DNA from: Candidatus Sungiibacteriota bacterium
Lineage (GTDB): Bacteria > Patescibacteriota > Minisyncoccia > Sungbacterales > HO2-52-23
Length of the DNA stretch: 50,472 bases
Direction: 5' to 3'
NCBI GenBank assembly: GCA_016186095.1
Contig: JACPMG010000019.1
Span: 1-50,472, forward strand
Shown here: positions 21,170 to 45,493 of the stretch, piece after piece
Numbering within the stretch: position 1 is the stretch's first letter
How the letters are laid out: every line of letters starts with the position of its first letter
The notes under the pieces: model-generated
What the model was told of the DNA's origin: nothing
What the model saw: only the letters and a program-made list of their open reading frames with translations
Databases searched by the model: none
Position numbers and translations under genes: made by a program

Positions 21170-21490
21170 GTTAAATTTTTGTTACCGAATTTTTTTCGCC
21201 AATGGCTCGAAAATTTGGACAAAAAAATTAAAATTCCCTCGCAAGAAGGGCTGATAAATGTATTATCTTCCCCAACTGCTTGATGGGCTGGACTTGGCAC
21301 CGTGTCAAGCTACCAGTAACCAGTTACCAGTAACTAAATCGGTTGTCGGCGGATCACAGAGCCAGTGCTCTCCCCGCGCTCTTGATAAATACTTATGAAG
21401 TTGTTGATTCTAACTATATACTTTTTAACGCCCTGCGGTCAAGAGATGTAAATCCATACAACGCTACCCCGCTTACGGAAAACTGAACGT
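21170..21490. other. Gene-free stretch between metK leader and the large surface gene
   Basis: AT-rich DNA without a convincing gene. It holds a CCAGTTAC word repeat (21308-21334: CCAGTAACCAGTTACCAGTAAC), the same words found inside alr. A TTGACA on the minus strand near 21295 lacks a good -10 partner. The metK promoter must lie here or nearby but is not clear. Confidence 0.5.
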
Positions 21491-30508: not shown

Positions 30509-30658
30509 GATGCGGTTTCCTCGCCAATATGCTTTTTCAACACGTCTTGGCCGCTCCCGCGGCGGCCTGCGCTAATAGTCGGATGCGGTTTCCGCCTTCG
30601 GCGGACCAAGCAAACCGCATCCTCCATTGTCTCAAAAGCATATTGGCTCGACCGCATC
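30509..30658 (-). repeat. Three-way-junction element, copy D (reverse orientation)
   Basis: Minus-strand reading: outer stem GATGCGGT and GCCAATATGCTTTT with their complements, then AATGG (pairs CTATT), GGATGCGGTTT/AAACCGCATCC with bulge GCTTGG, hairpin TCCGCC gaa GGCGGA, GACTATTAGCG, and side hairpin GGCCGC/GCGGCC. Same plan as copies at 36764, 42576 and 45335, but on the opposite strand. Lies between rseP and the zinc-ribbon promoter. Confidence 0.75.
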
Positions 30659-35713: not shown

Positions 35714-36724
35714 CTATCGTTTTGACATTATGCTCCTCTTGTAAACATCAAGATGTTCCAAAGCAATCCCCGTGCCTTTGGCCACGCATAAAAGCGAATT
35801 CTCGGCAATATGCGCGGGCACGCCGGTTTCCTGAAAGACTAGCTCATCAATATTTCTCAATAAAGAACCCCCGCCGGTCATCACAATTCCTTTATCCATA
35901 ATATCCGCGGCCAGTTCCGGAGGCGTGTCGTGCAAAACTGATTTTATAGCACGCACTATTTCATCAAGCTCATCGGCGATCGCATCCGTCACTTCAGGAG
36001 AATTAATTTCAACGGTCTTGGGAAGCCCAGACATCAAGTCGCGGCCCTTAATCTCCATTTTTAATTTTTCATCGTCCACCGGCACCGCGGATCCGATCTT
36101 AATTTTAATATCCTCGGCGGTCCGGTCTCCGATGGCTAAATTATAATTTTTTTTGATGTAATCAGAAATCGCCTGGTCTAGTTTATTTCCAGCAACTTTA
36201 ACCGAGGTGGAAGCGACAATCCCGCCCAAAGAAATCACCGCCACATCCGTAGTTCCTCCTCCAATATCCACCACCATATGGCCGGAAGGTTCATTTATGG
36301 GGATACCCGCGCCGATGGCTGCGAGCACCGGCTCTTTTACCACATAGGCGGCCTTAGCTCCGGCCTGCACAGTAGCCTCAATGACCGCGCGCCTTTCGGT
36401 GGAAGTCACACCCGCGGGAACGGATACCATCACTTCCGGGCGAAACAACCTGAATTTTCCTCCGGCTTTGTTGATAAAATAACGGAGCATGGCTTCGGTA
36501 ACGCGGTAGTCGGCAATAACGCCGTCTTTCAACGGCCTGTAAGCCACAATAGTCTCCGGAGTCCTGCCGATCATCTCACGCGCCTCGTTACCCACGGCGA
36601 GCACCGTATTTTCATCGCGCGATACCGCCACCACTGACGGCTCATTAATAACCACACCCCTTTTCGGAACAAAAACAAGGGTGTTGGCGGTGCCGAGATC
36701 AATGCCTATTTTCCTTATGAACAT
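35714..36724 (-). CDS. mreB: MreB/Mbl-like actin homologue (second copy)
   Basis: 336 aa from the ATG at 36724 ([15 protein letters not shown] follows at once; an in-frame ATG at 36748 would add eight Gly/Trp-rich residues). Phosphate motifs [14 protein letters not shown] and adenosine motif [13 protein letters not shown] present. Paralogue of the copy at 9889, here between murA and holB. Possibly specialised, as Mbl/MreBH are in Bacillus. Confidence 0.93.
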
Positions 36725-36763
36725 GTCCGTCCACCACCCACCAAGCAAGGCTTGAGTTTAACT

Positions 36764-36917
36764 TGTAGGCGGTCGAGACAATATGGTTTCGAGACAATGG
36801 GAGGAGCGATTTGCTTGGTTCCGCCAAAGGCGGAAAATCGCGACGACCATTAGCGAGCTCGCCGCTGGAGCGAGCGAGTCGTGTCTCGAAACCATATTGT
36901 CAAGGAAACCGCCTACA
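36764..36917 (+). repeat. Three-way-junction element, copy C
   Basis: Plus-strand reading: outer stem TGTAGGCGGT and GACAATATGGTTTCGAGACA with complements. AATGG pairs with CCATT (Watson-Crick here, G-U in the other copies). GCGATTT/AAATCGC with bulge GCTTGG; hairpin TTCCGCC aaa GGCGGAA; side hairpin GCTCGC/GCGAGC with loop CGCTGGA. The 3' arm contains the murA stop codon. Confidence 0.78.
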
Positions 36918-38211
36918 CTCTTTTTATATCCGCTCCCAATTCCCTCAATCTCTCATCAATCTTCTCATACCCTCTATCCACATGCTCCACTCCGGAAATC
37001 ACCGACTCTCCCTCTGCTACGAGCGCGGCGATCATATGCGCCATGCCTGCTCGTATGTCGGTCATAACAATTTCTGTTCCTTGAAGCTTTGCGGGACCGG
37101 CGATCACTGCGGTATGGCCTGAGCCCTGCCCGTGGAAACGGCACACAAATCCGCTGGGACAATCCGTCAAAACACTGATTTTAGCACCCATGCGGTTTAA
37201 GTCCCTGGTATAGCCGAAGCGATCCTCATAAATGGTCTCATGTATTATTGATTCACCACGGCCTCTGGTCAAGAGAACGGAAAATGGCTGCTGCCAATCG
37301 GTCATAAAGCCGGGGTGTGGAGACGTTTCTAAATTTAGAGCACGATACGACCCACTTCCTGAAAACCTTATACCATCGGCTTGAACCTCGTATAATCCGC
37401 CCGCCTCCTTTATTTTTTCTAAAAAAGAAATAAGATCCTGCTCCCGCGCCCCGTGGACAAAAACATCCCCGCCAGTTGCGAGAGCCGCGACGGCAAACGA
37501 TACCGCCTCATTGCGGTCCGGCATAACGCGCGCTTCAACGCCGTGAAGCTTTTCCACGCCATTGATTTCAATCAGACGTCGCTTCTCATCATGCTCTATG
37601 TCGGCACCCATCGACTTCAACATGCCGGCAAGACCAAAGATCTCAGGTTCAATCGCGGCATTGCGTATTACGGTTTTACCATGCGCAAGAACCGCAGCCA
37701 ACATCACATTCTCCGTAGCCCCTACCGACGGAAAAGGGAAATCAATATCCGCGCCGTGAATTTCTTTTGCCTGGACAAAATAAGACTCGGGCCGCCTCTC
37801 AACTTGGGCCCCCATTGATTTTAAGGCCTCCACATGAAAATTAATCGGCCGGTGGCCTATGGGACAACCTCCGGGAACAGGAACTTCGGCATACCCTTGA
37901 CGATGCAGAAGCGGCCCTAGGGCTAAAATGGGTATCCTGTTTTTGCGCGTAAGTTCCGTGAGACGCGTATTTCTAATGCTTGGCGTCACCAGTCTGCAGA
38001 TGCGCTCCTTGCCAACCGCGACCCTGCTCCCAATATGTTCACACAATTCCCGGGTAATATCGGTCTCCGCGGACAATGGGATATTCTCAATAACACACGG
38101 CTCATCGGTAAGCAAAGACGCGATCATCATCTTGGATGCCATATTTTTGGAGCCGCGTACCTCTGCCTCTCCTTTTAGCGGGCGTCCGCCCCTTATGCGA
38201 AGCTTTTCCAT
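36913..38211 (-). CDS. murA: UDP-N-acetylglucosamine 1-carboxyvinyltransferase
   Basis: 432 aa. First committed step of peptidoglycan precursor synthesis. EVRGSKNMASKMM contains the conserved Lys-Asn pair. The active-site Cys (fosfomycin target) is in VPGGCPIGHRP at about residue 116. The C-terminal TDIRAGMAHMIAALVAEGES is typical. Expressed from a promoter that overlaps the divergent one for the PEGA gene; followed by element C. Confidence 0.94.
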   Translation of the reverse strand: MEKLRIRGGRPLKGEAEVRGSKNMASKMMIASLLTDEPCVIENIPLSAETDITRELCEHIGSRVAVGKERICRLVTPSIRNTRLTELTRKNRIPILALGPLLHRQGYAEVPVPGGCPIGHRPINFHVEALKSMGAQVERRPESYFVQAKEIHGADIDFPFPSVGATENVMLAAVLAHGKTVIRNAAIEPEIFGLAGMLKSMGADIEHDEKRRLIEINGVEKLHGVEARVMPDRNEAVSFAVAALATGGDVFVHGAREQDLISFLEKIKEAGGLYEVQADGIRFSGSGSYRALNLETSPHPGFMTDWQQPFSVLLTRGRGESIIHETIYEDRFGYTRDLNRMGAKISVLTDCPSGFVCRFHGQGSGHTAVIAGPAKLQGTEIVMTDIRAGMAHMIAALVAEGESVISGVEHVDRGYEKIDERLRELGADIKRV

Positions 38212-42128: not shown

Positions 42129-42192
42129 GAGCTTTTAGCTTTTAGCTTTTAGCTTTTAGGTCCGCTCCTAGAAGCTATAAGCTGGAAGCTAT
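42129..42192. repeat. AGCTTTT word hairpin between rplQ and rplM
   Basis: Four tandem GCTTTTA units (42131-42158) face the complementary words TAGAAGCTATAAGCTGGAAGCTA, making an imperfect hairpin in the ribosomal operon. Confidence 0.65.
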
Positions 42193-42536
42193 TTAACCAA
42201 TTCAATTATGGCCATTTTCGCTCCATCACTAATCCTTACGCCCAATTTTACAATCCTCGTATATCCGCCGGCTCGTCCGGAAAACGTCCGCCCAAGCTCC
42301 ATGATTTTTTTTACCACAGCGGGCGCAAAAAGTTTTCGAAACAATCTCCCGTTGGCAGGCGCGGGGTTCTTGGCCCGCGTAATAAACTTTTCCACGAATG
42401 GGCGCAATTCCTTGGCCTTAGCCTCCGTGGTCTTAATCCGCCCCAGCATAAAAAATGAAGAGGCCAGACTCTTCATAAGCGCGCGCCTTTGATTTCTCTC
42501 TCTTCCAAATTTTCTACCTTTCTTAAGGTGTCGCAT
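42189..42536 (-). CDS. rplQ: Ribosomal protein bL17
   Basis: 115 aa from the ATG at 42536 (MRHLKKGRKFGRERNQRRAL is the conserved start; the frame stays open to 42608 but that part overlaps element B). The family core TEAKAKELRPFVEKFITRAK and GGYTRIVKLGVRISDGAKMAIIEL is present. Normal length. Confidence 0.95.
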   Translation of the reverse strand: MRHLKKGRKFGRERNQRRALMKSLASSFFMLGRIKTTEAKAKELRPFVEKFITRAKNPAPANGRLFRKLFAPAVVKKIMELGRTFSGRAGGYTRIVKLGVRISDGAKMAIIELVK

Positions 42537-42575
42537 ATTTATCTCCCACACTTCTAGCTTGGGAAGTTTTTTAAT

Positions 42576-42729
42576 GAGGCGGGTGGCGGCTATTTCGTCT
42601 GCAAACAATGGAGGATGAGATTTGCTAGGTTCTGCGCAAGCGCAGAAAATCTCATCCGACTATTAGCGAGGTTTACCGCTGGAGTAAACCAAGCGTGTTT
42701 GCAAACGAAATAGCCGCTGTAACCCGCTC
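42576..42729 (+). repeat. Three-way-junction element, copy B
   Basis: Plus-strand reading: outer stem GGCGGGT and CGGCTATTTCGTCTGCAAACA with complements. This arm differs from the other copies yet stays paired. AATGG/CTATT; GGATGAGATTT/AAATCTCATCC with bulge GCTAGG; hairpin TTCTGCG/CGCAGAA; GACTATTAGCG; side hairpin GGTTTAC/GTAAACC with loop CGCTGGA. The 3' arm reaches the rpoA stop codon. Confidence 0.78.
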
Positions 42730-43691
42730 TATTGTTTCAAAGTAATCCCAAAATTTCCCAACGCTTTTTTCACTTCCTGAATCCCTTTATCCCCCATCCC
42801 TTCAATACCGCGCAAGGTTGACTCTTTTTTACGAGAAAGTCCGCCCACGGTCTTGATACCCGCCTCTCGCAGCGCATTCAAAGTACGGCTGGAAAACTTA
42901 AGCTCATCAAGCTTAACCTTAAACGCCGACTCGTCAAGAATACCTTCTTTGTTTTCGTCCGCCGCCTTTTCTGTAATCCCCGCCGTATCGCGGAGTTTTA
43001 CCGCTGCTTCTGCAAACCCTTCGCCCAAAGCGCCAAATTGCTCGACAAGAATCTGCGCCGCTTTGGTAAATGCTTCACGCGGAGCGAGCGACCCATCCGT
43101 CTCGATGTCAAAACGTACAAGATTGTAATCTATCCTATCCCCCACGCGCATATTTTCCACCGCATAATTCACATGCCGCACCGGGGAAAACGCGGCGTCC
43201 AAGGCAATAGTCCCCACTTCTACTTTTTCTTTGGTACGGGCCTCGGCCGGAACGTAGCCGAATCCGGACTCCACAATCGCCTCCGCCTCAAACTTCGCTT
43301 TCTTTGAGGTAAGCGTTGCTATGTGAATATTAGGAGTCACCAACTCGACTTGAGATGGAATTTTAAAATCTTTGCCCTTTACTTCTTTCTCGCCGCTTGC
43401 CGAAATCGTTATGGTGAAAGGACCTTCCTCGTACAGGCGGAAACGCATCTGCTTTAAATTTAAAATCAAATCCACCATATCCTCCTTAATTCCCTCCATT
43501 GTTGAAAATTCGTGCCCCACGCCGACGATTTTTACCGCCGTCAAAGCAGCGCCCTTTATGGAGGAAAGGAGAACCCGGCGAAGACTATTGCCGATGGTCT
43601 GGCCGTAACCCGGATACAATCCTTCAATTTCAAAAACCGCGCGATTTCCTTCTTCAGATACTACCTTTGGCTTAGATGGAAGTGAGATCAT
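42729..43691 (-). CDS. rpoA: RNA polymerase alpha subunit
   Basis: 320 aa from the ATG at 43691 (a TTG three codons upstream is possible). N-terminal assembly domain with YPGYGQTIGNSLRRVLLSSIKGAA and the DYNLVRFDIETDGSLAPREA segment. A linker is followed by the C-terminal domain (LDELKFSSRTLNALREAGIKTVGGL...IEGMGDKGIQEVKKAL). Between rpsD and rplQ as usual. Confidence 0.97.
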   Translation of the reverse strand: MISLPSKPKVVSEEGNRAVFEIEGLYPGYGQTIGNSLRRVLLSSIKGAALTAVKIVGVGHEFSTMEGIKEDMVDLILNLKQMRFRLYEEGPFTITISASGEKEVKGKDFKIPSQVELVTPNIHIATLTSKKAKFEAEAIVESGFGYVPAEARTKEKVEVGTIALDAAFSPVRHVNYAVENMRVGDRIDYNLVRFDIETDGSLAPREAFTKAAQILVEQFGALGEGFAEAAVKLRDTAGITEKAADENKEGILDESAFKVKLDELKFSSRTLNALREAGIKTVGGLSRKKESTLRGIEGMGDKGIQEVKKALGNFGITLKQ

Positions 43692-43694
43692 ACC

Positions 43695-43768
43695 ACGCAA
43701 GACATAAAATATAAGTTTTAAGATATAAGTTCAAACTGACAACTTATAACTTAAACCTTATACCTATT
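43695..43768. repeat. TATAAGTT word hairpin between rpsD and rpoA
   Basis: TATAAGTTTTAAGATATAAGTT faces AACTTATAACTTAAACCTTATA across a 9-base loop, an imperfect hairpin of repeated words. Confidence 0.65.
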
Positions 43769-45334: not shown

Positions 45335-45493
45335 GCCGTTAGGTCGAACCGATATGTTTTCGAGACAATGGAGGATGCGGTTAGCATGGTTCCCGCTATA
45401 AGCGGGATAACCGCATCCGACTATTAGCGAAGTTTTGTCGCTGGACAAAACAAGCGTGTCGAGAAAACATATCGGCGAGGACACCTTAACGGC
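45335..45493 (+). repeat. Three-way-junction element, copy A
   Basis: Plus-strand reading: outer stem GCCGTTAGGT and CGATATGTTTTC with complements, and an asymmetric internal loop between them. AATGG/CTATT; GGATGCGGTTA/TAACCGCATCC with bulge GCATGGT; hairpin TCCCGC tataa GCGGGA; GACTATTAGCG; side hairpin GTTTTGTC/GACAAAAC with loop GCTG. It occupies almost the entire rpmJ-rpsM gap, antisense to the operon in this reading. Confidence 0.8.

Follow-up and report, generated by a model that had tools for sequence, protein, structure and literature searches.

A dispersed three-way-junction element of Patescibacteria that mostly adjoins stop codons

REP, REPIN and BIME sequences, which go with RAYT (TnpA-REP) transposases, are palindromic, extragenic and present in many copies, and they often lie directly behind stop codons. 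They expand in a genome-specific manner, have a conserved bulge and are recognized on one strand as a single strand. ERIC/RU-1 and other MITE-like elements are intergenic, about 127 bp long and without an ORF, with no known autonomous partner. The attC sites of integrons are folded single strands recognized by structure, with variable stems and a position directly behind a stop codon. The structured RNAs of Rfam include three-way junctions with covariation and conserved loops. The element described here resembles each of these groups in the traits named. It was found in Patescibacteria, which are reduced, mostly uncultured and, to our knowledge, poor in described mobile elements.

The starting point was a contig of Candidatus Sungiibacteriota (GenBank assembly GCA_016186095.1, contig JACPMG010000019.1, positions 1 to 50,472). 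This whole stretch of 50,472 nucleotides is called the window below.

Anatomy and distribution of the element

A first-pass annotation of the window had described four copies of a three-way-junction element. Their places were correct and all are intergenic (covariance-model R2 cores, 132-143 bits; Table 1), and each copy adopts the described three-way structure alone, with an MFE of -80 to -91 kcal/mol when the flanking stem is included. The number four was too low, as the genome of origin (G000, 680 kb) holds eight, with four more full copies outside the window.

About 145 nt long, the element folds as a single strand into three arms of fixed architecture. Read inwards, a variable stem (P0) is followed by a CGAG/CGAG internal loop, a P2 helix of about 20 bp and a three-way junction. 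At this junction comes first the P3 arm, which has a bulge and ends in a hairpin, then the linker GACYATTAGCG and finally a side hairpin. The internal loop, more generally YGAR, is a conserved tandem-GA motif with an extra 2-3 nt that interrupts the outer stem. The linker is exact in 4/4 window copies, as had been noted. The bulge, earlier given as 6-7 bases of type GCWWGG, is of that kind and measures 7 nt, WGCWWGG in the window copies; GCNNGG is found in 136 of 145 copies. The side-hairpin loop, first read as "CGCTGGA or similar", is refined to CGCNGG(A/G/U) (127/145 copies), and the ending AAGCGTG holds for two of the four copies, the other two having GAGTCGTG and AAGACGTG. A pseudoknot between AGCG and the CGCT of the loop is compatible by eye; it is not claimed here because the AGCG columns change on one side only. 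In the G006 copy L044:1501-1637 the upper part of the side hairpin is apparently inverted, reading GTCCAGCGAC where other copies have GTCGCTGGAC, and the AGCG that normally precedes it is gone.

Table 1. Features of the four window copies and their neighbours
Feature	Position	Strand	Basis or remark
Copy 1 three-way-junction core (GGTCGAA...GACACC), upstream of rpsM	45342-45485	+	R2 136.8 bits; gene by Pfam
Copy 1 P0 outer stem, 5' arm (GCCGTTA)	45335-45341	+	sequence
Copy 1 P0 outer stem, 3' arm (TTAACGGC), continues into second CGAG	45486-45493	+	sequence
Copy 1 P3 arm: stem GGATGCGGTT/AACCGCATCC, terminal GC-rich hairpin	45373-45418	+	fold, alignment
Copy 1 P3 bulge, 7 nt, AGCATGG	45383-45389	+	fold, alignment
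Copy 1 AGCG / side hairpin GTTTTG-TCGCTGGA-CAAAAC / CGT	45426-45457	+	fold, alignment
Copy 2 core, between rpoA and rplQ	42582-42724	+	R2 131.6 bits; Pfam
rpoA beside copy 2	42729-43700	-	stop codon 4 nt from core
rplQ beside copy 2	42189-42608	-	Pfam
Copy 3 core, between EPSP-synthase-family gene (murA-like) and mreB	36771-36910	+	R2 143.1 bits; Pfam
EPSP-synthase-family (murA-like) gene beside copy 3	36913-38211	-	stop codon 2 nt from core
mreB beside copy 3	35714-36748	-	Pfam
Copy 4 core, intergenic, adjoins peptidase M50 gene(s)	30514-30653	-	R2 140.1 bits; Pfam

Larger variants were seen in genome G009. Five copies (L119:1148-1423, L094:13566-13845, L120:11916-12191, L124:13094-13380 and L133:4801-5071) have a second long hairpin (CCCCGCACC...GACGGGG) in the bulge; in the three that were fully read, a repeated CTTG flanks this nested hairpin and the outer stems differ. 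Copies of about 215 nt (L137:8153-8370, L078:18229-18446, L135:7234-7448 and others) have a conserved insert CCGAGCACTCAA...TTGAGTGCTCGG in the P3 loop, which holds an inner GGTAGTCCCTCGA..GGGAACTATT hairpin, and some shorter copies retain its base stem only. The same genome has another dispersed palindromic repeat, of about 115 nt and made of ATTTGTAGATTWGCAT units, in several copies; it flanks C8:202386, C8:74392 and C1:120741.

With model R1 the element was present in 18/55 genomes, the own genome included. In the same family-level group (Ca. Sungbacteria) it was found in 10/13 genomes when the own genome and the single-copy G010 are counted, or 9/13 by a cautious count that leaves out G010; G002, G005 and G011 of this group gave no copy by model R1. 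Carriers such as G000 and G009 hold from 8 to about 57 copies per genome. The 57 copies of G009 were found by model R2 in the 1.02 Mb examined and are a lower bound, since a stretch of its contig C4 (about 60001-120000, L140-L142), where three 20-kb bins have a GC skew of zero and contain no genes, is apparently N-masked. Across the phylum Patescibacteria, model R2 identified clear members in at least 22 of the 380 genomes sampled, again a lower bound owing to a strict first filter, and most of the phylum copies examined by single folding retain the bulge, loop and junction. Matching public records are MAGs of Ca. Sungbacteria/Sungiibacteriota and other Parcubacteria. Viral contigs had no match to one exact pattern, and three alphaproteobacterial matches to a pattern, which the covariance model did not match, are due to chance.

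Relation to described repeats, RNAs and enzymes

The family had not been recognized at first, and this stands: a search of Rfam 15 (4227 families, curated and permissive) gave no match for the element above any gathering cut-off, and searches of open-access literature for palindromic repeats or structured RNAs of CPR bacteria yielded nothing on it. Elsewhere in the window a SAM riboswitch (RF00162, 57.2 bits) was seen at 21260-21391 on the minus strand.

Like REPs, the element is extragenic, of high copy number and adjoins stop codons. Unlike them, it is a three-way junction of about 145 nt, where a REP is a hairpin of 20-50 nt, and its stem sequences are not conserved. The GTAG/CGTC foot that marks REPs is absent from the invariant columns, the conserved foot of the element being TTAGCGAG/YGAR. 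The richest genome, G009, gave no match to a Y1 transposase (RAYT), and RAYT loci are not flanked by the element; of ten Y1 loci, one held a copy, about 1.3 kb distant. Y1 genes themselves were found in 34 of 55 Patescibacteria searched, many as frames of about 220-240 aa (RAYT-like), with no element flanking. One class of REPs has no dedicated transposase (PMC3733652). In contrast to IS200/IS605, the lagging-strand template does not carry the strand that folds; the opposite was seen, a result confounded with gene direction. As regards attC sites, R''/R' boxes (RYYYAAC / GTTRRRY) are approached at 45335 only (GTTAGGT/ACCTTAAC-like), none of the remaining three copies of the window having them, and neither consistent R-box ends nor a cassette array was seen. 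Nor was an integron integrase, as judged by tyrosine-recombinase matches, which were mostly single: just one was found in 11 of 13 genomes examined, and no match reached the threshold in the own genome. Reverse transcriptase was also absent from the own genome, and the Y1, reverse transcriptase and tyrosine recombinase searches revealed no candidate enzyme common to the carriers. A derivative of REP/RAYT or IS200/IS605, or an attC site, would explain the hairpins, the single-strand folding and the adjacency to stop codons; given the missing GTAG tag, the RAYT-free G009, the unflanked RAYT loci, the R-boxes in one of four copies and the integrase result, we attach almost no weight to such an origin. 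Identity with RAYT-REP, with integron attC or with a known RNA family is not supported.

ERIC copies share sequence, whereas the stems of the element share structure only. DDE-derived MITEs have conserved terminal inverted repeats and a target duplication; the ends of the element are inverted and not conserved in sequence, and the sister-species sites described below gave no clean empty site. The element matches no known family tested here; its behaviour is REP/ERIC-like, and it does not qualify as a REP.

Covariation and the folded strand

The proposal that stems differ among copies and stay paired was borne out. In a plain MAFFT alignment of the eight own-genome copies, made with no structural fitting, 28 of 52 pairs had two-sided changes and 95.1% of cells were paired. 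The controls were shuffling and sliding: none of 500 shuffles reached the covariation score, and pairing fell to about 40% when the partner was slid by one base. Covariation was also strong among 67 copies, with two-sided changes at 49 of 52 pairs, 94.1% of cells paired and 0/500 shuffles as high. The 67-copy alignment was fitted to the covariance model, and the eight-copy MAFFT alignment is therefore the unbiased one. Covariation beyond chance is expected of a functional RNA; pairing at the level of DNA would yield the same signal.

The helices were 91-93% Watson-Crick, with G-U in only about 3% of cells; RNA helices usually have about 10% G-U. Between close pairs of copies, there were 44 two-sided Watson-Crick changes as against 19 to G-U, 7 to A-C and 11 one-sided changes to other mismatches, and this excess is the reverse of what would be expected for RNA. 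The fold is strand-specific, opposite-strand matches reaching 15-29 bits as against 52-143 on the given strand. The given strand was also favoured by G-U over A-C (186 vs 108) and had the lower MFE in 116/130, and a G-U pair at the foot of the side hairpin is nearly invariant.

RNA function is the main rival to a mobile element. A structured noncoding RNA, with its own plus-strand promoter (antisense to the abutting gene) and multiplied by duplication, would bind protein or RNA through its bulge and loop. In favour of this reading, the architecture and unpaired motifs are conserved phylum-wide, the plus strand is favoured down to the G-U pair just mentioned, and a TACAATAAG box stands ahead of some G009 copies. 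We nevertheless consider it rather unlikely, in view of the scarcity of G-U, the lack of a promoter-like site at the single window copy scanned and the gain, loss and exchange of copies described below. A small hairpin of variable stem followed by TACAWTAAG does recur 20-60 nt upstream of cores in G009 (e.g., C7:36912, 103931), but with a strict match at only 10 copies, and it is also found without the element, so that it was rejected as a promoter.

Both arms of the P0 stem are entirely different between the copy at 45335 and that at C18:22141 (96% identical), yet it pairs in each; likewise it is wholly different and still paired between C15:907 and a G003 copy, with cores about 90-96% identical. 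Whole stems that differ and still pair, and two-sided changes that outnumber one-sided ones even in close pairs, might come from ordinary palindromic repeats in decay, in which template switching during replication keeps the arms complementary and no function is selected. Such correction would erase the bulge, the tandem-GA loop and the junction, which persist phylum-wide, and the strand asymmetry also speaks against it; we regard this origin as very improbable.

Placement at stop codons, exchange and possible mechanism

In G009, 40/57 copies have a gene boundary no more than 16 nt from their 3' end, where random placement in the same gaps would give 10.7 (maximum of 100,000 simulations, 22), and only 5 copies have one that near to the 5' end. 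The boundary at the 3' end is mostly the stop codon of an antisense gene. Genes were delimited by simply taking the longest ORF, and an individual distance may for this reason be wrong by a start codon; stop positions are exact. For 14 of 33 such genes from the five other genera compared, the orthologous stop codon in G009 also has the element; among background genes the share is 6-10% (P at most about 2e-6), and a Fisher test with the remaining genes of these loci as reference gives 1.6e-5. The element is retained beside stop codons at conserved operon positions, and the sites occupied across genera include rpoA/rplQ, murA/mreB and ftsZ. Among the window copies, the sites upstream of rpsM and at rpoA/rplQ are also occupied in G009, and the murA-like/mreB site in G003, G009 and G012. 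Copies are dispersed among syntenic core genes; no recurrent neighbour that could be an autonomous partner was found, the neighbours being housekeeping genes.

This placement would suit a cis-acting mRNA element, whose reverse complement behind the stop codon would form an intercistronic or 3'-UTR structure setting mRNA ends, stability or translation. The flush position of the 40 copies, the sites shared between genera and the copy between rpoA and rplQ agree with it, and ribosomes are reported to stall at REPs that lie no more than 15 nt from a stop codon (PMC12306157). The signs of selection are on the other strand, however, the abutting genes vary, the element is missing from over half of the G009 orthologues, and a T-run terminator is not consistently seen; we judge this explanation improbable. 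The idea that P0 is in general the intrinsic terminator of the abutting gene was dropped because C15:907 alone has a clear T-rich tract.

Elements are gained and lost at sites. Between the sister species G009 and G012, which show synteny and a nucleotide identity of about 78%, sites such as G012C9:3332, 4666 and C4:17417 have the element in one species only, and distinct AT-rich repeats are found there in the species that lacks it. No precise empty site with a target duplication for the element itself was seen in this comparison. Several pairs from a shared site are orthologous, with 0.83-0.97 identity over the paired positions, and others are random-like although the flanking protein is >90% identical (e.g., L104/L127 at mreB; L116/L121). 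Overall, same-site cores across genomes are no closer than random pairs (mean percentile 0.55, 35 pairs), and one orthologous site has matching flanks and a core of another subfamily. In G000 and G001 copies are most alike within the genome, and in G001 the nearest relative of 22/24 copies lies in the same genome. From the mismatch of same-site cores, the conserved flanks and the similarity within genomes, it follows that the sites endure and that their cores turn over by copying and exchange. The element has been dispersed, expanded genome by genome, gained and lost.

To fit the data, the element must undergo copying or exchange and must have one strand on which its fold is favoured. Both halves of the original proposal, a structured RNA or a folded-DNA mobile element, survive the Rfam and covariation tests, and the evidence leans to the second (dispersed copies, occupied and unoccupied sites, few G-U pairs, core exchange). 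The low G-U, the two-sided changes and the core exchange together favour folded single-stranded DNA. We give about even chances to protein-less miniature interspersed elements of Patescibacteria, REP/ERIC-like in lifestyle and not in sequence, that a host enzyme moves or exchanges as folded single-stranded DNA. A host nucleic-acid enzyme would read the structure together with the conserved bulge and loop, and may copy or exchange the element in this form. Repair of the arms against each other would account for the excess of two-sided over one-sided changes. Once inserted behind a stop codon, the hairpin may act on the mRNA 3' end or on intercistronic expression, as REPs do; the abutting position suggests such a REP-like effect on mRNA ends. 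Against mobility, positions conserved across genera could reflect a host function instead. More tentatively, and a little short of even chances, the elements may form a previously undescribed, phylum-wide mobile class of folded three-way junctions, served by a structure-recognizing Patescibacterial enzyme and re-occupying fixed operon boundaries, also inside the ribosomal alpha operon.

This is possibly a new mobile-DNA mechanism. A high-copy element found across the phylum behind the stops of essential genes (e.g., rpoA, ftsZ) would mean either that or a missing regulatory layer, and both readings can be tested directly with the covariance model, the lists of copies and the shared sites.
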